Shown here: piece after piece, positions 1 through 11,476 of the stretch
How positions within the stretch are numbered: the first letter of the stretch is position 1
Layout: each line of letters begins with the position of its first letter
IMG/VR virus record: IMGVR_UViG_3300008448_000653
Coordinates: 1-23,804 of that record
Source of the DNA: a virus
Direction: 5' to 3' (one strand)
Length of the DNA: 23,804 bases
Program-made: the position numbers and the translations under genes
The notes under the pieces: generated by a model
Told to the model about the DNA's origin: nothing
What the model saw: only the letters and a program-made list of their open reading frames with translations
The model's database searches: none

Positions 1-208
1 ACAACTCACAGCAGCACAGCGGGTAAAACTAAACATCTCCTCGACATATCCTGGTCCGCTTAACAACATCACAGAGATCAAAATCTACACCAATACATTT
101 AGTTCTCATCTCGCTATCGACAATCTCAACTACACGGTGGTTCCTGTACCATCGGCACTTGCCCTGCTTGCGATTGCTGGTATTTCAACTAATCGACGGA
201 GGAAGTAA
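1..208 (+). CDS. PEP-CTERM-like secreted protein, C-terminal part (5' end outside window)
   Basis: This is the last 68 codons of an open frame entering from the left edge, read from base 2 to the TAA at 206-208. The visible protein ends with a PEP-CTERM-like sorting tail: VPVPSALALLAIAG, a few polar residues, then RRRK. In this family the tail is a Pro-containing motif, one hydrophobic helix and a basic end, which a bacterial exosortase processes during export to the cell surface. The upstream part is rich in Thr, Asn and Ser, as expected for an exported beta-rich domain, but I cannot name a domain. The stop is followed two bases later by the next start codon, and the bases encoding the Arg run also supply the GGAGG-type ribosome site for that next gene. 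It sits upstream of phage replication genes, so a phage origin is likely. Whether the host processes the tail is inference. Confidence 0.7.
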   Translation, partial: QLTAAQRVKLNISSTYPGPLNNITEIKIYTNTFSSHLAIDNLNYTVVPVPSALALLAIAGISTNRRRK

Positions 209-209
209 A

Positions 210-308
210 ATGCTTGATCTCATAACCATTGGTTTCTTTATTATCGCCTTCGTATTTGTCTTAGTAGATCTTCGTCTGCGCCGACTTGAGAATAAACAGG
301 GAAAGTAG
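210..308 (+). CDS. 32-residue single-span membrane peptide
   Basis: This ATG frame of 32 codons encodes a peptide with one hydrophobic segment (residues 3-19, ITIGFFIIAFVFVLV) followed by a basic, charged tail (DLRLRRLENKQGK). It should insert in the inner membrane with the tail in the cytoplasm by the positive-inside rule. A strong ribosome site (CGGAGGAAG, 197-205) lies at good spacing before the ATG, and the gene fits exactly between the PEP-CTERM-like gene and the next start at 311, which supports it being real. The function is unknown. Small phage membrane peptides include holin-like, antiholin and superinfection-exclusion proteins, but nothing here distinguishes these. Confidence 0.6.
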   Translation: MLDLITIGFFIIAFVFVLVDLRLRRLENKQGK

Positions 309-310
309 AA

Positions 311-502
311 ATGAATAAAGATAATGACGATAAAGACATTGCCTATGAACTTCGCGTTCTGAGCAAGAGGCAAGATCTGCCACCTGATGTAATTCGTACA
401 ATTTCAGAGGCATATGCTGAGATTGTGGAACTTCGCAGTCAAGTAAGCAAATATGCTCTGGAAGCGATCACTCGTTTCGATGAGGAGAATGGATTAATAT
501 AA
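311..502 (+). CDS. small hypothetical protein
   Basis: A 63-residue acidic protein (many Asp and Glu, starting MNKDNDDKDIAYEL) with no Cys and a likely helical C-terminal half. It begins two bases after the preceding stop, with a GGGAAAG ribosome site at 300-305, and its TAA overlaps the ATG of the next gene by one base (TAATG at 500-504), so it is embedded in the operon. I do not recognise a family. The sequence is soluble and helix-rich, with no signal peptide or membrane span. Confidence 0.6.
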   Translation: MNKDNDDKDIAYELRVLSKRQDLPPDVIRTISEAYAEIVELRSQVSKYALEAITRFDEENGLI

Positions 503-780
503 TGTATGGAATAGTTACTGATAAAGACAATTTTGTGATGGATAACATGAAAGACCCTTCGGGAGAACCCCGCAAGGGTACTCTTCTTTTTAAAAAGAAG
601 TCAGATGCAGTAGCAGAATGTGACTACCTAAATAGTATACGACATAAAATGAAAATTAGTGAATGTTATAGCGTTTCAAAATTCACAGAAGAAAACTTGA
701 CAGACTATGGTATAATTTTAGATGGTAAATGGCAAAGGAATCTTAAATGTACAATAACTTTCGACCAACTGGTAGCGTAA
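502..780 (+). CDS. hypothetical protein
   Basis: A 92-residue soluble protein starting MYGIVTDKDNFVM. Its first half looks like a short beta-alpha unit (GTLLFKKKSDAVAECDYLN), a pattern common in small phage proteins of unknown role. The start overlaps the preceding stop by one base. Its last 34 bases overlap the next gene in another frame, and they contain both an extended -10 promoter (706-716) and the next ribosome site (AAAGGA, 734-739). So the 3' end of this gene also serves as the control region of the following gene. I do not recognise a family. Confidence 0.55.
   Translation: MYGIVTDKDNFVMDNMKDPSGEPRKGTLLFKKKSDAVAECDYLNSIRHKMKISECYSVSKFTEENLTDYGIILDGKWQRNLKCTITFDQLVA
706..716 (+). promoter_or_regulatory. 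extended -10 promoter inside the preceding gene
   Basis: TATGGTATAAT contains a perfect -10 hexamer (TATAAT, 711-716) preceded by the TGn extension. The same 11 bases occur in the promoter at 9043-9053. A TTGACA lies at 697-702, but only 8 bases separate it from the -10, so it cannot be a normal -35 partner. Transcription would start near 722-723, giving a leader of about 24 bases that carries the AAAGGA ribosome site of the gene at 747. Confidence 0.5.
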
Positions 781-1370
781 TTCAACTTATGGATGGTAGA
801 GTCTTCAAAAGAAACCAAAAGAATCTTTGGGAAGATATTAACACAGGTGTTACAATCACGGAACAGCAACTTGGTACGATGATATCATCTGCAAATTTTA
901 GTTCTGATGCAAGTGGTGGAGGTAGAACAAATAGAAAGAATACATTTGTTCCAGACTATACTGCAACTCAAAGAGAATGGGGAGATATAAATGGTCTTAA
1001 TTATGGTGTAGAAGCATTCAATTCAAATCAAATAATTTCAGGAATAAATGCTCCAATTGAAATTAGATTATCATTTGAAAATACTACATCTGGAGGAAAT
1101 GCAGTTTATGCAGCAACAAGTTCATTGAAAGTTTATAAAAATGATATCTTAATAGATACAATTTCTACAAATACTAGACCGACTAAATCTGGAGATGGTG
1201 CTGGATTATATACTTTGAGTGAAACTTTTTCAAATAATGATACACTAAAATTTGGAGCAATTAGTACTACTGATATAAATTATGATATTGTTAGTGTACA
1301 AAATAAAACTGAAGGTGGTTCATCTATATCTTTAACAGGAATTACAGTTATTATTTCAGAACTTGGTTAA
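747..1370 (+). CDS. beta-rich virion or fibre-like protein
   Basis: A 207-residue protein. ATG at 747 was chosen because AAAGGA lies seven bases upstream; an internal ATG at 789 has no comparable site. The first 50 residues are a compact N-terminal segment (GRVFKRNQKNLWEDINTG) followed by a Ser/Gly-rich linker. Residues 90-207 alternate hydrophobic and Thr/Ser/Asn residues, typical of a beta-sandwich or fibre tip (IEIRLSFENTT, SLKVYKNDILIDTIST, ITVIISELG). There are no Cys, no signal peptide and no membrane span. This type of sequence suits a virion surface protein. It is out of place between small genes and a DNA polymerase fragment, and it has its own candidate promoter. A cargo gene inserted into the replication region is one explanation. 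No specific family was recognised. Confidence 0.6.
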   Translation: MYNNFRPTGSVIQLMDGRVFKRNQKNLWEDINTGVTITEQQLGTMISSANFSSDASGGGRTNRKNTFVPDYTATQREWGDINGLNYGVEAFNSNQIISGINAPIEIRLSFENTTSGGNAVYAATSSLKVYKNDILIDTISTNTRPTKSGDGAGLYTLSETFSNNDTLKFGAISTTDINYDIVSVQNKTEGGSSISLTGITVIISELG

Positions 1371-1375
1371 TATAA

Positions 1376-2494
1376 ATGAATTTGAAATCTTTATCTGATG
1401 AACAACTTCTATATTTAAAGCATCAAACAGAAAATGATATTTCGAAGTATCATAACTTTCAACTTGTAAGAAAGATTCAACTGAATTCTGCTTACGGTGC
1501 AATCGGAAATGAATATTTTAGATATTATTCCACTGAACTTGCAGAAGCGATTACTTTATCAGGACAATTATCTATTCAATGGATTGGTCAAGAAATCAAT
1601 TCTTATTTGAATAAGATTATTGGAACTGAAGATTATGATTATGTAATTGCCTCTGATACAGATTCGATTTATCTACGTCTAGAAAAACTTGTAGATAAAA
1701 TCTATAAAGATAAGAATGAAAATACTAAAAAGATTGTAGATGCTTTGGACAATACTTCAAAGGATATCATTCTTCCATTTATTGATAAGAAGTTTAAACA
1801 ACTGGCAGAAACCATGAACGCATATGAAAATAAGATGCACATGGAGAGAGAAGTAATTGCTAACAAAGGTATTTGGACTGCGAAGAAAAGATATATGTTG
1901 AATGTTTGGGATTCTGAAGGAGTCAGATATTCAGAATCAAAACTCAAAATCATGGGTATTGAAACAACACGTAGTTCAACACCTGAATGTATTCGTAAAC
2001 TTCTAAAGGAAGCAATTCATATCACAATGAATGGAACCGAATCAGAGATGATCTCGTTTGTTGAAAATTGTAGAAATGAATTTAATCAACTAACTCCAGA
2101 AGATATTGCATTTCCAAGAAGTGTGAATGGAATGGGAGACTATTTCGATAAAACACAGATCTATAGAAAATCAACTCCCATGCATGTGAAAGGATCATTG
2201 ATTTATAATCATTATTTGGAAAAATTTAAACTGACTAAAAAGTATAAGAAAATTATTGAAGGAGATAAGATAAAATATCTCCATCTTAAGAAACCAAATC
2301 CATTCCTTGATATTCGTGGAGACATGCAAGTAATAGCATTCCCAAATGTTCTTCCAAAGGAATTTGGTCTTGATAATTTTATTGATTATAAAACACAATT
2401 TGAAAAATCTTTTATTGATCCGTTGACTACCATTCTAGATACTATAGGATGGAGTGCGGAGAAAAAGCATACACTAGAATCATTATTTGGTTGA
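1376..2494 (+). CDS. 43: T4 gp43-like family B DNA polymerase, C-terminal part (fingers/palm motif C/thumb)
   Basis: A 372-residue protein matching the last ~370 residues of T4 gp43 (898 residues). Motif B is at residues 33-41 (KIQLNSAYG, with invariant Lys, Asn, Tyr, Gly), motif C at 94-97 (DTDS, metal-binding aspartates), and the KKRY thumb motif at 170-173. The protein ends in LESLFG, equivalent to the sliding-clamp-binding tail of T4 gp43. From the motif B Asn to the C-terminus is 335 residues against 334 in T4, so this part is complete. What is missing is the N-terminal domain, the 3'-5' exonuclease and motif A. The frame opens with its own ATG five bases after the preceding stop, with no clear ribosome site. 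The missing half is not in the window; it must be encoded elsewhere and assemble in trans, or the polymerase is broken. Split gp43 proteins are known in some T4 relatives. Confidence 0.9.
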
Positions 2495-2504
2495 AAGGAA
2501 TATT

Positions 2505-3551
2505 ATGAGTGACTTCTTATCGTCAATGGTTAAATCATCTGGAAACAAATACGCTTCACTTGTATCTGATGGATTGGATGGATCAGATGTAGGTGGATTT
2601 GTAGATACTGGATGCTACATGTTGAATGGACTTCTTTCTGCCGATATTTACGGTGGACTTCCAAACAATAAGATTCTTGCACTAGCAGGAGAATCTTCAA
2701 CAGGTAAAACTTATTTCACTTTAGGAATTGTTTCTAAGTTTCTGAGAGATAATCCAGAGGCAGTAGTTTTATATTTTGATTCTGAACAAGCAGTAACATC
2801 TGAGATGTTTAAGAATCGTGGAATTGATCCTAAGCGAGTCGGAGTATTTCCAGTATCGACAATTGAAGAGTTCAGGCATCAGGCAATTACGATTGTTGAT
2901 AAGTATCTTGCATTGCCGAAGGAAGATCAGAAACCAACGATGGTGGTTCTAGATTCTCTTGGCATGTTGTCAACTTCCAAGGAAATGAATGATACTGCTG
3001 AAGGTAAGGAAACGCGAGACATGACTCGCGCACAAATTATCAAGTCAACATTCAGAGTTCTTACAGTTAAACTTGGAATTGCAAAGATTCCAATGATTAT
3101 GACAAACCACACATATCAAGTTGTTGGTGCATATGTTCCAATGTCAGAGATGGGTGGTGGTACTGGTCTAAAGTATGCTGCATCAACAATCGTGTATCTA
3201 TCCAAGAAGAAAGATAAGAATGCTGATGGACAAGTAGTTGGAAATATTATTCACTGTAAACTCTACAAGGGTAGATTTACAAAAGAAAATAAGCAGATTG
3301 ATGTTCGTCTAAATTATGACAGCGGATTAGATCCGTATTATGGTCTTGTAGATATTGCTGTTAGTGCTGGAATCTTCAAGAAAAATTCTACACGAATTGA
3401 ACTTCCTGATGGATCGAAAGCATTTGAAAAGACCATCTATGATAATCCTGAAAAGTATTTCACGAAGGATGTTCTTGACCAAATCAATGAGGCGGTGTAT
3501 AATGAGTTCAGTTATGGTGGAGAAACCAAAACTGAAGTCGAGGAATCATGA
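2505..3551 (+). CDS. uvsX: UvsX-like recombinase (RecA family)
   Basis: A 348-residue RecA-family strand-exchange protein. It forms filaments on single-stranded DNA for recombination-dependent replication and repair. Walker A is GESSTGKT (residues 62-69); Walker B is [10 protein letters not shown], with Asp150; FDSEQ at 91-95 fits the RecA/UvsX glutamate region; and [12 protein letters not shown] resembles the T4 UvsX DNA-binding loop region. Length is slightly below T4 UvsX (391). The ATG at 2505 is preferred over a TTG at 2487 because AAAGGA lies just upstream and MSDFLSS resembles the T4 N-terminus. The C-terminus is acidic, as in UvsX. It follows the polymerase by ten bases and overlaps the helicase start by four (ATGA). 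Confidence 0.93.
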
Positions 3552-4900
3552 CTGATATTGAAAAACTGATACTGCATAATCTCTTAAGAAACGAAACATA
3601 TTCACGAAAAGTTACTCCCTTCCTCAAGAGGGAGTATTTTCATGATCGTGCAATACGATTTGTTTTTGAAACTATTCATGAGTTTATTCAGAAATACAAT
3701 AACCTTCCAACCAAGGAAGCGTTGTATATCATTCTTGATAAGAACAAATCAATCACACAAGAGGAACTGAAGCGTGTCTCACAAATCGTTGAGGAAATAT
3801 CGCATAATCAAGAGTCGTGTGACAATGAATGGTTGTTCAATGAAACGGAAACATTCTGCAAAGAGAAAGCGGTCTACAATGCGATCATGGAATCCATTCA
3901 AATTATTGATGGAAAATCTCAACAAGCACAGGGATCTATTCCTGATATTCTATCGAAAGCATTAGCAGTATCTTTTGATGTTCATATTGGTCACGATTAC
4001 ATTGAAGACTATGAAAAGCGATATGATTTCTACCATACAGTAGAAAAGAAGGTTCCATTCGATTTGGATTACTTTAATCAAATCACAAACGGTGGAACTC
4101 CGTCAAAGACTCTCAATATCGTAATGGCAGGAACTGGCGTAGGAAAGTCTCTTTTCTTATGTCACCATGCTGCAAATTGTCTGAAGCAGAACGCCAATGT
4201 TCTGTATATTACGTGTGAAATGGCAGAAGAAAGAATTGCAGAAAGAATTGATGCAAATCTTCTTGATATTACTCTTGACAATCTGAAAGAACTTCCAAAG
4301 ACTGTATATGAAAAGAGAATGGAAAATCTTTCATCTGGAGTCACAGGTAAACTTATCATCAAAGAATATCCAACTGCAACTGCTAATGTAAATCATTTTA
4401 GATTCTTGTTGGATGAACTTTGGTTGAAGAGAAAGTTTAAACCAGACGTAATCTTTATTGACTATTTGAACATCTGTGCATCTGCTCGTCTGAAAAATGG
4501 AAACAATATCAATTCTTATACTTACATTAAATCCATTGCAGAAGAGTTGAGAGGTCTTGCTGTAGAGTATGGTGTACCTTTGTTTAGTGCTACCCAGACT
4601 ACTCGCTCTGGTTATTCCAATTCAGATGTAGGTCTTGAAGATACTTCAGAATCGTTCGGTCTTCCCGCAACTGCTGACTTTATGTTTGCTCTTATCTCTA
4701 CAGAAGAACTTGCAGAGCAAAATCAAATCATGGTCAAGCAATTGAAAAATCGTTATAATGATACTGCTGTGAATCGTAAATTCTTGTTAAGTATCAATCG
4801 TGCAAAGATGAAACTTACAGATATTCAATCACAATCAAATACAGTAATTCCAACTACTCCAACTCAAAAGAAAACGAAAATGGATGATTGGAAATTCTAA
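3548..4900 (+). CDS. 41: gp41-like replicative helicase (DnaB family)
   Basis: A 450-residue hexameric 5'-3' helicase that unwinds DNA at the fork and works with the gp61 primase encoded next. An N-terminal helical domain (1-150) contains the DnaB-like [19 protein letters not shown] segment. The RecA-like motor follows: Walker A GTGVGKS (195-201), [17 protein letters not shown] (the DnaB H1a/H2 region) near 218-234, Walker B VIFIDYL with Asp305, then [13 protein letters not shown], a DnaB sensor/H3-like motif. The length is close to T4 gp41 (475). The start overlaps the uvsX stop by four bases and the stop shares one base with the primase ATG, giving a tightly coupled recombination-helicase-primase block. 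Confidence 0.93.
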
Positions 4901-5877
4901 TGTCACTTTATCTTGATAAGAAATACATCAATCTAGTTTCCAATTCTCTTGAGAAGTTCAAATGGAAGAAGAATACACTTGCAAACTGTAGATGTCCAAT
5001 CTGTGGCGATTCCACAGTAAGTAAAACAAAGGCAAGAGGTTATTTCTTTAGTTCAGATGATTCTTTCTTTTTTAAGTGCCATAATTGTGGTATATCATTT
5101 AATGTTTATAAATTTTTAGAAATTGTATCTCCAAGTCTTTTTCAGCAATATTGTCTTGAAAAGTTCAAAGACGATACTCGTAAAGAACTTGAGTTTACTT
5201 CACCAGTAGTTTCTATTACTTCTTCGATTCCAGAATATACTCTGATTAAAGATTTACCAGAGAATCACGAAGCAAGACAATTTATTGAAAATCGAAAGAT
5301 TCCATATCTAAATTCTAAAATTGGATACGTTGAATCGTTTGCAAGATTTGCAAAAGAATTTAATCCAGATTATGAACTTATGGATGATTCTCGAATTATA
5401 ATTCCAATTTTTGATGAGCACAATCAGTGTATTGGTGTTCAGGGTAGAACCATCAAGAATGCTAAACCAAAATATATCACACTCAAAAAGACTGAAAATA
5501 TTAAACTAATTTATGGTCAAGATCGTGTGGATAAAAGCAAGCGTATTCTCGTCGTAGAGGGTCCAATTGACAGTCTATTCGTTGCCAATGGAATCGCTTG
5601 CTTGGGTTCAGGAAATTTTCTAGAAATTAGAGAAAAGTTTCAAAAACAAGATCTTGTGTTCATTCTGGATAATGAACCTAGAAATAAACAAATTGTAGAC
5701 ATTATGTCAGAACTTATACAAAGAAACGAAAAAGTTTGTATATTTCCATCTAATATTAAACAAAAAGATATAAATGATATGGTCTTGTCAGGAATAAATG
5801 TTCCTGATATCATAGACAATCACACATATCGTGGTGCATCAGCACTTTTAAATTTTAATTCATGGAGAAAATGTTAA
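4900..5877 (+). CDS. 61: gp61-like DNA primase
   Basis: A 325-residue primase that makes RNA primers for the lagging strand together with gp41. The N-terminal zinc-binding domain has CPICGDS (Cys32, Cys35) and CHNCG (Cys60, Cys63). A TOPRIM fold follows: RILVVEGPIDSLF with catalytic Glu220, and FILDNEP with acidic residues 257-259 binding metal. Length is close to T4 gp61 (342). The ATG at 4900 overlaps the helicase stop (TAATG) and gives an N-terminus like that of gp61; an in-frame ATG at 4888 lies inside the helicase gene and is less likely. The gene ends in TAATG, sharing a base with the next start. Confidence 0.92.
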   Translation: MSLYLDKKYINLVSNSLEKFKWKKNTLANCRCPICGDSTVSKTKARGYFFSSDDSFFFKCHNCGISFNVYKFLEIVSPSLFQQYCLEKFKDDTRKELEFTSPVVSITSSIPEYTLIKDLPENHEARQFIENRKIPYLNSKIGYVESFARFAKEFNPDYELMDDSRIIIPIFDEHNQCIGVQGRTIKNAKPKYITLKKTENIKLIYGQDRVDKSKRILVVEGPIDSLFVANGIACLGSGNFLEIREKFQKQDLVFILDNEPRNKQIVDIMSELIQRNEKVCIFPSNIKQKDINDMVLSGINVPDIIDNHTYRGASALLNFNSWRKC

Positions 5878-6398
5878 TGAAGATTTCAAAGGAAAATTAT
5901 CTACTTCTGAACGCAGTTGCCGAATTTCATATGAAGTTTAGCGAATATGTGCGAGAACAAGATTCTGATCTTTTCTTTAGGGCAGTAGATTATGCAAAGA
6001 CATATACCAATGTTGAGGGTATGCAGTTTGATTATTGGCATGATGATAATAAGAAGTTCCTCAGCGAACTTTTAGCAGTTTTGGAAACCAAGTCTATTTC
6101 GTTTGATAAGTTTGTTGCCAAGGTAGGCAATATCGAAGATGCAAAGGAAGCATGGATGAAAAAGAATAAGACTACCAGCGATGATATGCTAGGAATGAAG
6201 AATTATCTTGAGAATTTTAAACGACATGCAAATGAACTTGATTATGACAGTTTTGATGTTGACGATTGGAGAAATTTTGTAAATGTTTGCAAGTACATCA
6301 AAGATGATTCGAAATTTATTGAGATGATTGAAAATCTTATCTTGAAGTATTTCAATGAAAATAGTGATTTGTATAAGGAATTTAAAAATGAAAACTGA
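5877..6398 (+). CDS. hypothetical protein in the replication operon
   Basis: A 173-residue soluble, acidic, mostly helical protein, rich in Asp, Phe, Tyr and Lys, with no Cys. I do not recognise a family. ATG at 5877 was chosen because it overlaps the primase stop (TAATG) and GGAG lies at 5864-5867; earlier in-frame ATGs at 5862 and 5871 would sit inside or on top of that ribosome site. The 3' end overlaps thyX by 11 bases. Its position between primase and nucleotide synthesis genes suggests a replication accessory role, but nothing in the sequence proves it. Confidence 0.7.
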   Translation: MKISKENYLLLNAVAEFHMKFSEYVREQDSDLFFRAVDYAKTYTNVEGMQFDYWHDDNKKFLSELLAVLETKSISFDKFVAKVGNIEDAKEAWMKKNKTTSDDMLGMKNYLENFKRHANELDYDSFDVDDWRNFVNVCKYIKDDSKFIEMIENLILKYFNENSDLYKEFKNEN

Positions 6399-7077
6399 AA
6401 GAATTACAGTTCTTGATTCTGGTTATGTTGAATATGTCGATCATATGGGTACTGATCTGACTATTGTTAATGCTGCCAGAGTCTCGTTTAATAAAGAAAG
6501 CGAATGGGATACTGGACATGTTCTTTCCGTTAAAGATTCCAAATTAGTCAAGTATCTCGCAGATCATAATCACTGGACTCCATTCGCGCATACATCTATT
6601 ACTTTGCGAATCAAAGCACCGATTTCAATTCGTACACAACTTTTTAAGCACAAGGTTGGATTTACGGAGAATGAAATCTCTCGCAGATATGTTTCATACG
6701 AACCAGATCTTTATTATCCATTCTTTCGTGGTAAACCAACGAATGGAGCAAAGCAAGGATCAGAAGATTTTATTCAAGATCCAAAGGTAAAACTTACAAT
6801 CGACAAGATCTATCGTGATTCTGCTGAATCCGCTATTGAAGCGTATAATGACTTGCTAGATGCAGGAGTAGCACCAGAGCAAGCAAGATTTATTTTACCG
6901 CAGGGAGTTTATACAGAGTGGTGGTGGACAGGATCTCTTCCAGCATACGCACGTGTTTATAAGCAAAGAATTGATCCACATGCACAATGGGAAGTTCAAC
7001 AATATGCAAAATCAATAGGTGAAATTATTGAATCGCTATTTCCTGAATCCTGGAGTGTCCTTACATCGAATACATAA
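6388..7077 (+). CDS. thyX: ThyX flavin-dependent thymidylate synthase
   Basis: A 229-residue FAD-dependent enzyme that methylates dUMP to dTMP using methylene-tetrahydrofolate and NADPH. The ThyX signature region is at residues 82-101: RTQLFKHKVGFTENEISRRY. The usual RHR is replaced here by KHK, a change I recall in marine phage ThyX proteins, while the NExSxRY part is kept. APEQARFILPQ (162-172) and DPHAQWEVQQYA near 196-207 fit the dUMP/FAD-binding C-terminal region. ATG at 6388 follows AAGGA and gives a standard N-terminus; the in-frame ATG at 6355 would add 11 residues inside the preceding gene. It supplies dTMP next to the RNR gene, so the two form a DNA-precursor pair. Confidence 0.93.
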   Translation: MKTERITVLDSGYVEYVDHMGTDLTIVNAARVSFNKESEWDTGHVLSVKDSKLVKYLADHNHWTPFAHTSITLRIKAPISIRTQLFKHKVGFTENEISRRYVSYEPDLYYPFFRGKPTNGAKQGSEDFIQDPKVKLTIDKIYRDSAESAIEAYNDLLDAGVAPEQARFILPQGVYTEWWWTGSLPAYARVYKQRIDPHAQWEVQQYAKSIGEIIESLFPESWSVLTSNT

Positions 7078-7103
7078 AATGCCACTTTCAATAAGGAGTA
7101 AGA

Positions 7104-9029
7104 ATGAAAGAATTACCTTCAGATTATCAAAAATTTATACACACATCAAGATATGCTCGTTGGATTGAGAAGGAAAAGCGTCGAGAAACATGGGAAGAGA
7201 CTGTTAAGCGTTATTTTGATTTCTTTGAAGTTCAACTCAAAGAACATAATAATTACGTTGTTTCTCCAGAACTTCGTTCTGAACTTGAGAATGCTGTTCT
7301 CAATCTTGAGATCATGCCAAGCATGAGAGCGTTAATGACTGCTGGTGAGGCACTTCGTCGTGACAATACAGCAGGATATAATTGTTCGTATGTTGCAGTA
7401 AATCGTGTGAGAGCATTTGATGAAATTCTATACATTCTGATGTGTGGAACTGGTGTTGGATTCTCTGTGGAGAGACAATATGTTGAAAAACTTCCTACAA
7501 TCGCTGAACACTTTAATCCTAGCGATACCACGATCATCGTGGAAGATAGCAAGGCTGGTTGGTCTAAAGCATATAAAGAACTTATCTCCCTACTCATTGG
7601 AGGTCAAATTCCAAAGTGGGATGTATCAAAAGTTCGTCCTGCTGGGGCGAGACTCAAAACTTTCGGTGGGCGAGCAAGTGGACCAAGACCCCTCGAAGAT
7701 CTTTTTAAATTCACCTGTGATACTTTTAAGAGAGCAGCAGGAAGAAAACTCACCTCAATCGAATGTCACGACATCGTATGTAAGATTGCAGAAATTGTCG
7801 TGGTCGGAGGAGTCCGTAGATCTGCTCTTATTAGCCTATCAAATCTCACAGACGAAAGAATGAGAGATGCAAAGTCTGGTGCATGGTGGAATGAGAATCC
7901 ACAACGCGCACTTGCAAATAACTCAGTTGCATACAAGGAAAAACCAGAGATTGGTATTTTCATGGATGAGTGGGTTTCACTCTATAAGTCTAAGAGCGGA
8001 GAACGAGGAATCTTTAACCGTTCGGCAGCACAGAAGACTGTAGCAAAGTTAGGAGAACGTCGTGATTCTTCTTACGAGTTTGGAACAAATCCATGCTCAG
8101 AAATTATTTTGCGTGATCGTCAATTCTGTAATCTGACTGAAGTTATTATTCGAACAGAAGATACTCAAGATACCATTGCACGTAAGGTTAGACTCGCATC
8201 TATTCTTGGTACATGGCAAGCATCACTCACACATTTCCCATACCTTTCATCAGAATGGAAAAAGAATTGTCAGGAGGAAGCATTGCTCGGTGTATCAATG
8301 ACAGGAATTCTAGACAATCCTCTTATGGGTAGTAAGGATCATCGTTTGTTGTCTGGTGTTCTAGAAGATCTTAAGAAAGTAGCAATTGATGCAAACAAGG
8401 AATGGTCTGATAAACTTGGTATAAATCCTGCTGCTGCTATTACATGTGTAAAGCCTTCGGGAACAGTTAGTCAATTGACTGATGCTGCGTCTGGTATTCA
8501 TGCTCGTCACAGTGAATATTATATTCGTACAGTTCGTGCAGATCGCAAGGATCCATTGTGTCAGATGATGATTGATCTTGGATTCCCCGCAGAACCATGC
8601 GTAATGAAACCAGATCATACGATGGTATTCTCATTCCCAATGAAGGCAGTTGGTTCAATTACTCGTAATGATTTGACTGCAATCGAACATCTTGAATTGT
8701 GGTTGACATATCAACGCCATTGGTGTGAGCATAAACCATCAATCACGATAACTGTTCGTGAACATGAATGGATGGAAGTTGGTGCATGGGTATATAAGCA
8801 CTTTGATGAGATTAGTGGTATTTCCTTCTTACCACACTCCGATCACTCATATCGTCAAGCACCATATCAGGAATGCACCAAGATTGCATATACTGCTTTG
8901 CTTGTAGAAATGCCTAAAAATGTAGATTGGTCACTTCTCAAGAATTATGAAAAGACTGACACGACCGCAAGTTCGCAGACATTTGCTTGCTCTGGTGATA
9001 AGTGTGAATTGGTGGATCTTACAACTTGA
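7104..9029 (+). CDS. nrdJ: class II (adenosylcobalamin-dependent) ribonucleoside-triphosphate reductase, monomeric type
   Basis: A 641-residue B12-dependent reductase converting ribonucleotides to deoxyribonucleotides. Compared with the Lactobacillus leichmannii enzyme (739 residues): redox Cys94 (NCSYV), the catalytic NPCSE loop at 329-333 with thiyl-radical Cys331, partner redox Cys342 (FCNL), and the C-terminal relay pair Cys629/Cys634 (CSGDKC), with the same spacing as the known relay cysteines. No intein or frameshift is seen. A strong ribosome site (AAGGAG, 7092-7097) precedes the ATG. No activator or NrdB gene is adjacent, consistent with class II, which needs no oxygen and no second subunit but needs host- or environment-derived B12. 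The TGA stop lies inside the -35 element of the next promoter. Confidence 0.93.
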   Translation: MKELPSDYQKFIHTSRYARWIEKEKRRETWEETVKRYFDFFEVQLKEHNNYVVSPELRSELENAVLNLEIMPSMRALMTAGEALRRDNTAGYNCSYVAVNRVRAFDEILYILMCGTGVGFSVERQYVEKLPTIAEHFNPSDTTIIVEDSKAGWSKAYKELISLLIGGQIPKWDVSKVRPAGARLKTFGGRASGPRPLEDLFKFTCDTFKRAAGRKLTSIECHDIVCKIAEIVVVGGVRRSALISLSNLTDERMRDAKSGAWWNENPQRALANNSVAYKEKPEIGIFMDEWVSLYKSKSGERGIFNRSAAQKTVAKLGERRDSSYEFGTNPCSEIILRDRQFCNLTEVIIRTEDTQDTIARKVRLASILGTWQASLTHFPYLSSEWKKNCQEEALLGVSMTGILDNPLMGSKDHRLLSGVLEDLKKVAIDANKEWSDKLGINPAAAITCVKPSGTVSQLTDAASGIHARHSEYYIRTVRADRKDPLCQMMIDLGFPAEPCVMKPDHTMVFSFPMKAVGSITRNDLTAIEHLELWLTYQRHWCEHKPSITITVREHEWMEVGAWVYKHFDEISGISFLPHSDHSYRQAPYQECTKIAYTALLVEMPKNVDWSLLKNYEKTDTTASSQTFACSGDKCELVDLTT

Positions 9030-9053
9030 CAATAAATATAATTATGGTATAAT
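9026..9053 (+). promoter_or_regulatory. consensus sigma70-type promoter overlapping the nrdJ stop codon
   Basis: TTGACA (9026-9031), 16 bases, then TATAAT (9048-9053) with a TGn extension (TATGGTATAAT, 9043-9053). Both hexamers are perfect, so host sigma70 polymerase should use it strongly without phage factors. The -35 includes the nrdJ TGA (9027-9029). Transcription should begin near 9060, directly before a GC hairpin, and read the PEP-CTERM-like gene. Confidence 0.8.
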
Positions 9054-9062
9054 ACTAAAAAC

Positions 9063-9079
9063 TCCCCCTCGTTGGGGGA
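9063..9079 (+). promoter_or_regulatory. 5' leader hairpin of the PEP-CTERM-like transcript
   Basis: TCCCCC, loop TCGTT, GGGGGA forms a six-pair GC stem starting about three bases after the predicted transcription start. No T-tract follows, so it is not a terminator. The ribosome site GGAG (9084-9087) lies just after it and stays single-stranded. A 5' stabilising hairpin is the simplest reading. Confidence 0.5.
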
Positions 9080-9093
9080 TCATGGAGAAAAAT

Positions 9094-9525
9094 ATGATTA
9101 AGAACGTAATGGCAAGTATCGTAGCAACCGTAATGTTTGGTGCTGAGGCAATGGCAGATTTCATCGTTGTTAACAATCCAGTAGTTGATACTGTTGGATT
9201 CTATTCTGATGCATTTGAATCAAAGGGTGCATATACTTATGCACAGAGTGGTGCTCAGGGATTTGAACTTGAGGATTCATACACAACTTCTTCATTGAAG
9301 TGGTGGGGTTCTATGAATGGTTTCAATGGTCAGGGTCTTTCAAATGTTGATTGTTTCCAGATCGTTGTTTGGAATACAGACTTTGAAACACAAGTTACAA
9401 ATCAAATTATTGATTTGGAAAATATTACAGCAACTGCAACTGGAGAAACTATTTCTTTGGTCAAGCAATCTATGAGTTTTATGTTCCAATTTCATTCCAG
9501 ATTACTTCAGGTTCATACTTTATGA
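9094..9525 (+). CDS. secreted PEP-CTERM-like protein, N-terminal part before an apparent frameshift
   Basis: ATG at 9094 follows GGAG (9084-9087) at ideal spacing; an in-frame ATG at 8947 lies inside nrdJ and upstream of the promoter. Residues 1-21 form a signal peptide (Lys3, hydrophobic core, AMA cleavage before DFIVV), so the protein is exported. The mature part has Gly, Trp and Thr and looks beta-rich. After ...TGETIS (about 9456) this frame turns into low-quality sequence ending VHTL, while the -1 frame continues sensibly (FGQAIYEFYVPISFQITSG) into the downstream ORF with the PEP-CTERM-like tail. One extra T in the CTTTGG run near 9455-9460 would restore one protein of about 220 residues. 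Either the gene is freshly broken, there is a sequencing error, or the frame is switched. No classical slippery heptamer is present in the right phase. Confidence 0.7.
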   Translation: MIKNVMASIVATVMFGAEAMADFIVVNNPVVDTVGFYSDAFESKGAYTYAQSGAQGFELEDSYTTSSLKWWGSMNGFNGQGLSNVDCFQIVVWNTDFETQVTNQIIDLENITATATGETISLVKQSMSFMFQFHSRLLQVHTL

Positions 9526-9761
9526 ACATTGGAGCACAACTCAATGATGCTGCTGGTGATCAATTTGTTTGGTCGCAGGGTCAGAATGTTCAAGACTTCT
9601 GGTTTACTGATGAAAATGGACAGAATAAGTGGGGTGATTGGCGACCACTTCCTACATTCATCGGTAATACCGCAGGGGGTGCGTTTGTGCTTTCCGCTCC
9701 TGCTCCTGGGGCAATTGCTCTTCTTGGTATGGCGGGTCTGATGGGTCGCCGTCGTCGCTAA
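9522..9761 (+). CDS. PEP-CTERM-like protein, C-terminal part after the apparent frameshift
   Basis: This 79-codon frame can start at the ATG at 9522, which overlaps the upstream TGA (ATGA), but it is more likely the 3' part of the gene starting at 9094. The in-frame sequence upstream of the ATG, from about 9455, is also coherent protein. It ends with a textbook sorting tail: Pro-Ala-Pro, the hydrophobic stretch GAIALLGMAGLMG, then RRRR. In this form the tail resembles those of planctomycete (Phycisphaerae) surface proteins. If only this part were translated it would lack a signal peptide, which argues against an independent gene. No ribosome site precedes 9522. Confidence 0.65.
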   Translation: MNIGAQLNDAAGDQFVWSQGQNVQDFWFTDENGQNKWGDWRPLPTFIGNTAGGAFVLSAPAPGAIALLGMAGLMGRRRR

Positions 9762-9774: not shown

Positions 9775-9836
9775 CATACCCCACTTGAGATAGCATCTCA
9801 GGTCCGACAACCTCCAGAAATGGGGGTTGTTTCTTT
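9775..9836 (+). ncRNA. candidate ~60-base small RNA with two hairpins
   Basis: The spacer between 9762 and 9836 contains a late promoter octamer, a nine-pair hairpin (9783-9803, stem ACTTGAGAT/ATCTCAGGT with one G-U pair, loop AGC), a three-base gap, then the terminator hairpin. A transcript from 9775 would be a short two-hairpin RNA. The alternative is that the first hairpin is only a spacer or a processing site of the upstream mRNA. Confidence 0.3.
9807..9836 (+). terminator. intrinsic terminator with AGAAAT loop
   Basis: The stem ACAACCTCC (9807-9815) pairs with GGGGGTTGT (9822-9830) with one T-G pair, and the loop is AGAAAT. A TTCTTT tract follows and runs directly into the next TATAAATA promoter. 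It ends the PEP-CTERM-like transcript and belongs to a family of similar hairpins at 11483, 12591 and 15857. Confidence 0.75.
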
Positions 9837-9843
9837 ATAAATA
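9836..9843 (+). promoter_or_regulatory. T4-type late promoter for the beta-helix gene
   Basis: TATAAATA, exact match to the T4 late consensus, located 16 bases before the ATG at 9860. The short leader contains AAAGGAG (9848-9854). The first T of the octamer is also the last base of the upstream terminator tract. Confidence 0.75.
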
Positions 9844-9859
9844 TTATAAAGGAGACATT

Positions 9860-11476
9860 ATGCACGAACTAAGACCAGTAGCGAGATGGGCAAGAGTTCC
9901 TTGGGAAACCGTCGATGGATTAGAACAAATAGGTGTTGTTTCTTTTCATAAGGATGGAATCAAGGAAGTTAGATATAAGATTGATATAGGCAATAAAGGT
10001 CCAGCAGATCTAAGTTTGGTTCTTTCTAATTTTGGAAAGATTACAACAGAAGGTGATCAGAATGGAGATGGAAAGGTAGATGCCACCGATTTAAGTTTGG
10101 TTCTTTCCCAATTTGGTGAACAATATGAAGTTGTAGTTACAGAATCAAGAGCAAATCAAAAAACAAAAATTGAAGAATATTCTTTTGATTTTGATTTCTC
10201 TCCCCTTTCAGAAGGAAAGATTGTAGAAGTTCAGGCAACTGTTGTGGCAAATGATGGAACAATCGTTGAACTGAAAGATCCCCGTACAATAGACAACTAC
10301 CGAGATGGGTTTCACTCTATTTGCTTACAGAAGAAATGGACTCCAGAAAAAGTATATACTGTAGATCAAAATGGTTCTGATTCAAACGATGGTATTTCTG
10401 CTCCATTCAAGACAATCGCAAAAGCATTTTCAGTTGCAAACTATGGAGATGTGATTGAGCTAAGTTCTGGAGAGCACGAATTGACTTTGCCATCTGTAAA
10501 ACCAAAACCAAAGCAAGGACTTGGAAATTGGGTCATTGTTCGTGGTAAAGGAATGAATGACACGATTCTATTCTCTCAAGGTGCTTTTAGAACATTTAAT
10601 AAAATCAAGTTTGAAAACTTGATGGTTGATATTGGTAGATCAAACTATGCTACCAATGCTTCAAACCTATGGTGGCACAACTGTAAGTTTTACTCACCAA
10701 GTTCAGAAGCGTGGTGGGCAGATGGTATTGCGAAGCATGGTCCACCAGATCCATCAATTCCTATCAGCGCGAAGGGAACAGATGCAGCATGGCACAGGGA
10801 TGGTGCTTGCTATACAGATTGCCATCAAGAACTTTATTGTCAGGGATTTGGTGGAAGTCCAATGGCAAGAAATTGTATAGTTAAGCGTATCTGGGGAGAT
10901 GCTTTTTCTATGGCACATGGAATCTATAACTGCTCAGTCGATGAATTTGCTGGGTATTTAACAGATAAGCATAGCGATCTATATCAGGCATGGGGAGATA
11001 AGACAAATGTTATTTTCTACGGAGTAACAGCAACAAAACTTGAGTCAGTTCAGGGTATTTTCTGCCGAATGGTAGATGTTCCAGTTTCAAGTCTTCCACC
11101 ATTTGATCCAAATATCCATGAGCAAACCGCTCTTTGGAATTGTGCGTTTGTTAATTGTGTAATACAACATATACCAAGACCATATAAGGGATATGTTAAT
11201 GGTGGTGGTCCTCCATATTCACAACTTAATAATAAAATTAAACATGTTCTTCTAACAAATGTTCAATTAGCATATCAAAAGATTTTCTTTGGTGGTGACG
11301 AAGAAGGTTGGGAAAAGAAGAACCATGAAGATGTCATCCTAACTGGTTGCGATCTTCATTGGTCAAATTTTAGTGATTTTGAAGATCCAAGAAGAGGATG
11401 GACAAAGATAGATGGTGGATATGAAAGAACTGGTGTGAAAGTATTAGACTGTTACAACTCAGTTCCAAAAGGATAA
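9860..11476 (+). CDS. beta-helix virion protein with inserted dockerin-like module (tail spike/fibre candidate)
   Basis: A 538-residue protein; ATG at 9860 follows AAAGGAG. Residues ~20-45 and ~88-140 look like two halves of an Ig-like beta domain (IGVVSFHKDGIKEVRYKI; EEYSFDFDFSPLSEG then VEVQATVVANDG). Between them, residues 47-87 form a type I dockerin-like module: two near-identical helices (ADLSLVLSNFG, TDLSLVLSQFG) and one complete calcium loop DQNGDGKVDATD (66-77). The first calcium loop is degenerate. From ~165, VYTVDQNGSDSNDGISAPFK followed by IAKAF is the usual opening of a right-handed beta-helix (DUF1565/pectate-lyase-like), and the remainder has repeated Asn/Cys-rich turns. There is no signal peptide and a late promoter drives it, so a tail spike or fibre is the best guess, possibly polysaccharide-binding or -degrading. 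No catalytic residues can be assigned. Confidence 0.75.
   Translation: MHELRPVARWARVPWETVDGLEQIGVVSFHKDGIKEVRYKIDIGNKGPADLSLVLSNFGKITTEGDQNGDGKVDATDLSLVLSQFGEQYEVVVTESRANQKTKIEEYSFDFDFSPLSEGKIVEVQATVVANDGTIVELKDPRTIDNYRDGFHSICLQKKWTPEKVYTVDQNGSDSNDGISAPFKTIAKAFSVANYGDVIELSSGEHELTLPSVKPKPKQGLGNWVIVRGKGMNDTILFSQGAFRTFNKIKFENLMVDIGRSNYATNASNLWWHNCKFYSPSSEAWWADGIAKHGPPDPSIPISAKGTDAAWHRDGACYTDCHQELYCQGFGGSPMARNCIVKRIWGDAFSMAHGIYNCSVDEFAGYLTDKHSDLYQAWGDKTNVIFYGVTATKLESVQGIFCRMVDVPVSSLPPFDPNIHEQTALWNCAFVNCVIQHIPRPYKGYVNGGGPPYSQLNNKIKHVLLTNVQLAYQKIFFGGDEEGWEKKNHEDVILTGCDLHWSNFSDFEDPRRGWTKIDGGYERTGVKVLDCYNSVPKG

Follow-up and report, generated by a model that had tools for sequence, protein, structure and literature searches.

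A probable split T4-type gp43 locus at the edge of a viral contig, and a clade of uncultivated viruses whose polymerase halves are parted by a tRNA-bearing island

A replicative polymerase is among the genes least expected to be cut. The closest described cases of such a cut are found in the Aeromonas phages 44RR2.8t and 25, whose T4-type polymerase gp43 is encoded as gp43A and gp43B (Petrov, Ratnayaka and Karam 2010, via PMC2988022). The enzyme is the same as the one considered here, and its break likewise falls roughly at the fingers tip; the 43A and 43B products of phage 25 are described in PMC2988022 as co-purifying, with polymerase activity reported. Here, we describe a 23,804-nucleotide stretch of DNA from an uncultivated T4-like virus (hereafter the window) that constitutes the entire IMG/VR record IMGVR_UViG_3300008448_000653, itself a fragment, and that carries only the C-terminal half (C-half) of a T4-type gp43 gene in an open reading frame (ORF) at positions 1376–2494. 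Very probably, the window holds the right-hand end of a gp43 locus that is split, with a family-B replicative polymerase made as two polypeptides and the N-terminal half (N-half) encoded off the left edge. The polymerase features of the window are:

1376–2494, plus strand: gp43 C-terminal half (motif B on the second helix of the fingers, the palm part bearing motif C, the thumb and a clamp-type tail), a separate ORF of 372 residues
1472–1495, plus strand: motif B, KIQLNSAY, K33 to Y40 of that ORF
1655–1666, plus strand: motif C, DTDS, residues 94–97 of that ORF

The 372-residue frame opens with its own ATG, covers positions 498–852 of the 856 in the gp43 profile phrog_262 (E 2e-143), matches nearly the whole length of phrog_1918, a 382-residue family that fits gp43 C-halves (E 1e-140), and aligns with residues 539–898 of T4 gp43 and 553–901 of RB69 gp43. 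The K, N and Y of motif B and the DTD of motif C are kept, the palm and thumb residues tested (RB69 E686, K705 and K706) are intact, and the C-terminal tail ends in LESLFG, the T4 counterpart being LDFLFG. Neither an exonuclease nor motif A was found in the window, where PolB matches are confined to this ORF; the N-half is absent because the contig edge cuts there, the record starting 1.4 kb upstream of the C-half. Most likely, then, the N-half is not truly lost and should sit off the contig, beyond an island whose right end forms the first 1.4 kb of the window. An earlier note, made from the sequence alone, had described only the motif B/C/thumb part of a T4-type polymerase, starting 32 residues ahead of the motif B Lys (here residue 33), ending in a normal clamp-binding tail and missing the exonuclease and motif A, and the profile matches and T4/RB69 alignments bear out each of these points.

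That note also placed the break in the fingers, between motifs A and B, and the cut indeed maps between about RB69 residues 509 and 528, at the tip of the fingers hairpin, as extrapolated from T4/RB69 alignments and set against the domain borders of RB69 gp43. The site was read from these alignments because the last residues of the N-half tail slid into gaps of the multiple alignment. Separately, the N-halves of 44RR, the Synechococcus phage ACG-2014f, the metagenomic contigs L061 and L161 and most of the clade to which the window belongs have a similar short end, a helix followed by RG(L/V) just before the stop; this tail, shared by separate lineages, reflects either common ancestry or convergence.

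Wherever the contigs of relatives (cited by L or G numbers) reach far enough, the N-half is found as a separate ORF of about 490 residues upstream and on the same strand; in this clade tRNA genes lie in between, often with a methyltransferase, endonucleases or other cargo. This arrangement, proposed in the earlier note as a split gp43 behind a cargo block, recurs in 35 viral contigs (32 plus three more from a second survey, some of them near-identical to each other), and the gap between the halves ranges from 0.18 to 8 kb, with 181 bp in L147 and about 8 kb in L174 and G012. Relatives at 70–77% protein identity or more whose contig reaches the start carry a separate C-half ORF of similar length, with the exception of L015 (frameshift). 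Of the relatives that have both halves, L161/L103 stands nearest: positions 502–7318 of the window are colinear with L161 4397–11221 in one alignment of 6.9 kb at 83.7% DNA identity, and L161 encodes an N-half with exonuclease and motif A at 268–1746 and a C-half at 5286–6404, 3.5 kb apart. Among isolated phages, none exceeds 60% identity to either half. Separate ORFs, conserved gene order, catalytic residues, selection and an uninterrupted sister locus are observed directly in relatives; the N-half of this very virus we infer.

An assembly or frameshift artefact deserves consideration with metagenomic contigs, all the more as L075, rejected as a split, looks like a frameshift within a fused gene, and L072, whose C frame is without motif B and looks frameshifted there, was left out as an independent split. 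Such an artefact is nonetheless barely credible as the source of the split, which is seen in 35 contigs from many metagenomes as separate ORFs with genes between them, and which alignment places at about the same site in the isolates 44RR2.8t, phage 25 and ACG-2014f.

Both halves are under strong purifying selection. The ratio of non-synonymous to synonymous substitution rates (dN/dS) of the C-half is 0.034 between the window and L003, a contig 94% identical to it, 0.089 between the window and L103, and 0.03–0.09 for the other usable pairs, after discarding L118–L119 (the L119 match lies in two pieces and in the wrong register) and L140–L146 (dS saturated); the N-half gives 0.05–0.11. All aligned N-halves retain the exonuclease residues D114, E116, D222 and D327 and the motif A residue D411 (numbered as in RB69), and all aligned C-halves apart from that of L072 retain the motif B and C residues. 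These findings bear on the idea that what the window carries is a gene in decay or a surplus copy, with replication entrusted to another, full-length polymerase. The record being a fragment, such an enzyme could lie off the contig; even so, this idea is very unlikely in view of the low dN/dS against the 94%-identical contig, the complete set of catalytic residues in the window's ORF, and the retention of the halves across many lineages of one clade. Furthermore, in the records of ten relatives, of up to 117 kb, one N-half and/or one C-half is present each time and never a full-length gp43, the kind of gene whose presence elsewhere in the genome would, by the earlier note, refute the split.

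How the two chains might work together can be sketched from the domain layout. The N-half, about 490 residues long, would supply the N-terminal domain, the 3'-5' exonuclease, the motif A palm and the first fingers helix, and the 372-residue C-half the second fingers helix with motif B, the motif C palm, the thumb and the clamp tail. As the cut falls in the tip of the fingers hairpin, the chains would pair there and share the palm, most likely assembling without covalent joining. The alternative, a rejoining of the expressed halves through a split intein or a trans-spliced split group I intron, draws on the interruption of other phage genes by inteins and introns and on the annotation of phage 25 43B as group I intron-split. 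It is extremely unlikely here: profile matches span residues 1–490 of 492 in the N-half and 2–372 of 372 in the C-half, which leaves no room for an intein and reveals no intein-N or intein-C domain at the break; the Rfam matches in L161, L149, L147 and L011 are all tRNAs, and the window and L015 have none, so that no group I intron is matched at the break in these sequences; and the gap is full of other genes, with the C-half having its own start codon.

Several observations weigh against a two-chain polymerase in this virus. The record contains no N-half for this very virus, its coverage ending at base 1. Co-assembly of the halves in this virus would be by analogy with phage 25. On the supporting side, the N-half of L161 modelled alone folds well and matches RB69 gp43, with a predicted local distance difference test score (pLDDT) of 84 and a predicted template modelling score (pTM) of 0.80; on the opposing side, the C-half alone gives a weak model (pLDDT 68, pTM 0.45) that is poor near motif B and over a portion of the palm, the parts expected to pack on the N-half, and a shallow alignment may be another cause. 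Finally, the L168/L173 contig carries the same PEP-CTERM cassette as the window and yet a fused polymerase, so that cargo alone is no proof of a split.

A phylogeny built from the two halves without the fingers tip places the fused gp43 of L173 as sister to the split clade with support of 100. The gene neighbourhood of L173 matches that of the clade but has no island, a MazG/dCTPase-like gene upstream being followed by fused gp43, UvsX and gp41. Splits outside the clade occur in the Aeromonas phages, ACG-2014f and L061, and the cut thus appears, on these alignments, to recur at about the same fingers-tip site in unrelated lineages. The trees require five to seven changes of state, the starred branches forcing five or six. 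In these quick-search trees, with the groups to be tested picked after the trees were seen, a grouping of ACG-2014f with the clade was rejected by the approximately unbiased (AU) test (p-AU 0.006), and a single clade of splits without the fused genes of L153–L160, which lie nested among them, fared likewise (p-AU 0.0015); the nested fused genes therefore imply either re-fusion or repeated fission. A fused gp43 in L125 (3618–6152), whose N-half is placed well within the split clade and whose C-half falls outside it, looks like a recombinant at the fission site in which the split was healed by recombination. The tips labelled 'SPLIT' in the C-half tree for L016, L018, L029, L034, L039 and L048 were set aside as contig-edge truncations of fused genes.

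The gap is, on this reading, a long-lived island of tRNA genes, a SpoU-family methyltransferase, homing-type endonucleases and exchangeable cargo. A tRNA gene lies in it at all 24 clade loci scanned; tRNA-Leu(UAA), present at 22 of the 24, is usually joined by tRNA-Gln(UUG) and often by tRNA-Leu(CAA). The methyltransferase (Pfam SpoU, E 2e-23) is found at 19 of 24 loci compared, as a rule directly after the N-half, and has relatives in only 5 of 50,697 phage records, all at less than 40% identity. HNH or GIY-YIG endonuclease genes occupy about a third of relatives' gaps (L011, L161, L091, L127, L163, L174 and L119, and directly before the C-half in L015). The suggested link of split gp43 genes to mobile endonucleases thus holds for several gaps, with the proviso that tRNA genes are the commonest occupant. 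Among the remaining cargo are a metallophosphatase, an enzyme of nucleotide-sugar epimerase type, PEP-CTERM-like proteins, a DUF5856 protein and a number of small proteins. Further tRNA genes lie outside the gap in the large contigs G001 and G002, so that the gap is one tRNA cluster among others.

Two features of the tRNA genes and their neighbour merit mention. Some tRNAs with the Leu(UAA) anticodon are only 75–76 nt long (L147:3876–3951, L149:2054–2128, L151:4102–4176, L004:3444–3518, L161:2387–2462) and lack the long variable arm that bacterial tRNA-Leu normally has; the copies in L124 and L134 measure 84 nt. The SpoU methyltransferase also lies close to two tRNA-Leu isoacceptors (L011:7105–7930 and 8409–8481; L013:1741–2523). 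In Escherichia coli, TrmL modifies the wobble base of these same two isoacceptors; the L161 copy has a better profile match to RlmB/TrmH than to TrmL.

How the split arose we likewise infer from gap contents. A homing endonuclease may have broken gp43 first, with tRNAs and cargo arriving later, a course that falls somewhat short of an even chance: HNH/GIY-YIG genes stand in the seven gaps listed and before the L015 C-half, and a GIY-YIG gene separates 43A from 43B in phage 25, but tRNAs are near-universal in the gap and endonucleases are not, and the smallest gaps (L147, L149, L151) consist of tRNA-Leu(UAA) and a short remainder, with none of the endonucleases searched for. Conversely, insertion of a tRNA gene first, followed by endonucleases and cargo, is possible but rather doubtful; it would fit the tRNA-Leu(UAA) counts and gaps that shrink to 181 bp of tRNA and a short stretch, and it is at odds with the splits outside the clade that have no gap tRNA (ACG-2014f, L061, and 44RR with its gap of 49 bp) and with the varying length of the tRNA-Leu genes, which may not form a single lineage.

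A further turn is seen in L127 (6001–10735), where gp43 is found as three separate ORFs, in the order 423-residue ORF, Mom-family DNA-modification gene (Pfam Mom, E 1e-27), 103-residue ORF with the first fingers helix, tRNA-Leu/HNH gap and C-half. The first two pieces align to N-half residues 1–418 and 414–492; a second contig of this kind was sought and not found, leaving L127 as a single case. It is enticing to speculate, if less likely than not, that the fingers tip is a standing harbour for cargo: the cut would persist because the tRNAs and methyltransferase of the island are useful, tRNA processing would cut the message between the halves, and the island would gather cargo (up to about 20 genes and 8 kb) shared by recombination, with the gene at times recut (L127) or healed by recombination (L125, perhaps L153–L160).

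The genes that flank the C-half in the window are:

2–208, plus strand: C-terminal part of a secreted protein of PEP-CTERM type, truncated where the contig starts (Pfam PEP-CTERM match at E 0.016, short of the cut-off)
210–308, plus strand: possible membrane peptide, short (32 residues), gap cargo, from sequence inspection with no search made
311–502, plus strand: small protein of 63 residues, gap cargo, with a homologue within the L174 gap
502–780, plus strand: 'MYGI' protein of 92 residues, common in the right part of relatives' gaps
747–1370, plus strand: protein of 207 residues and unknown function, immediately ahead of the C-half, with relatives shortly before the C-half in L161, L163, L164 and L116
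2505–3551, plus strand: UvsX recombinase, usually encoded next downstream of gp43 (phrog_97, E 4.5e-87)
3548–4900, plus strand: gp41-type replicative helicase (phrog_19, E 8e-124)

The order gp43 then UvsX is that of S-SSM4 and of the uninterrupted L173 locus. To the left, positions 2–208 match whole genes in L134, L135, L168 and L172 at 92–96% DNA identity and are the right part of the gap between gp43 halves, and by such matches the left end of the window appears to belong to the same kind of gap as in relatives. No endonuclease was recognised in positions 1–1375. The unrelated small genes claimed for the upstream 1.3 kb are present; the virion-like label is unsupported, the 207-residue ORF having no Pfam or PHROG match. 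Positions 1–502 match the gap cargo of L134/L135 in two pieces at 93–96% DNA identity, and since the C-half that goes with the L134/L135 cargo, seen in G012/L174, is much more distant from that of the window, cargo has evidently been exchanged between lineages. A 24-base stretch at the start of the window, used as an exact probe for a contig extending further left, matched different viruses that carry this cassette rather than the virus itself.

PEP-CTERM-like tails (Ala-Pro-Ser, hydrophobic helix, RRRR) are found at 2–208 and 9522–9761 of the window, L009:8119–8763, L012:1741–2388 and L174:4088–4741, and the window ORFs at 8947–9525 and 9522–9761 look like one such protein broken by a frameshift. 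PEP-CTERM is a sorting signal in some bacteria, e.g. Planctomycetota, and these tails on secreted-type phage proteins may offer a hint as to the host. Further along, positions 9827–11476 encode a protein of 549 residues in which a dockerin type I-like repeat and a beta-helix-like region are discernible (weak Pfam matches, below cut-offs).

Together, these loci delineate a wide uncultivated clade whose polymerase comes in two parts, separated by as much as 8 kb of foreign genes, and a single tree allows its fission, cargo exchange and apparent re-fusion to be traced. The clade offers natural split-polymerase designs to test, and comparison with the uninterrupted site bears on the breakage of essential genes by mobile DNA. 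In annotation and marker-gene surveys such viruses may be scored as polymerase-poor or partial.

Set against known systems, the split gp43 described here is not a new kind, because split gp43 genes have been described before and each half matches a PHROG family over nearly its whole length, phrog_2062 for the N-half and phrog_1918 for the C-half, profiles that are silent on gap content. In 44RR an N-half of 498 residues and a C-half of 391 are separated by 49 bp, and in phage 25 a GIY-YIG gene lies between 43A and 43B, an endonuclease in the gap like that of some clade members. Thus, the Aeromonas gaps amount to 49 bp or one endonuclease gene, without the tRNA/methyltransferase island of the clade, and the Aeromonas split gp43 is a separate lineage that groups with fused RB69. 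ACG-2014f has two annotated gp43 genes cut at about the same place, with two small ORFs between the halves; its gap has no tRNA, unlike that of the clade, and it sits among fused cyanophage-type polymerases. Further parallels are NrdA of phage Aeh1 (mobE), an essential enzyme cut by mobile DNA into two working chains, which differs in being a ribonucleotide reductase with a single endonuclease gene in the gap (PMC2988022), and the OM43 phages MEP401/402, whose DNA polymerase lies in two genes with one small ORF only between them and which are Zobellviridae-related (PMC10580990). The literature titles, abstracts and passages searched, with most subscription papers outside the search, hold no tRNA-island split of gp43, and it is this tRNA-island form that appears new.
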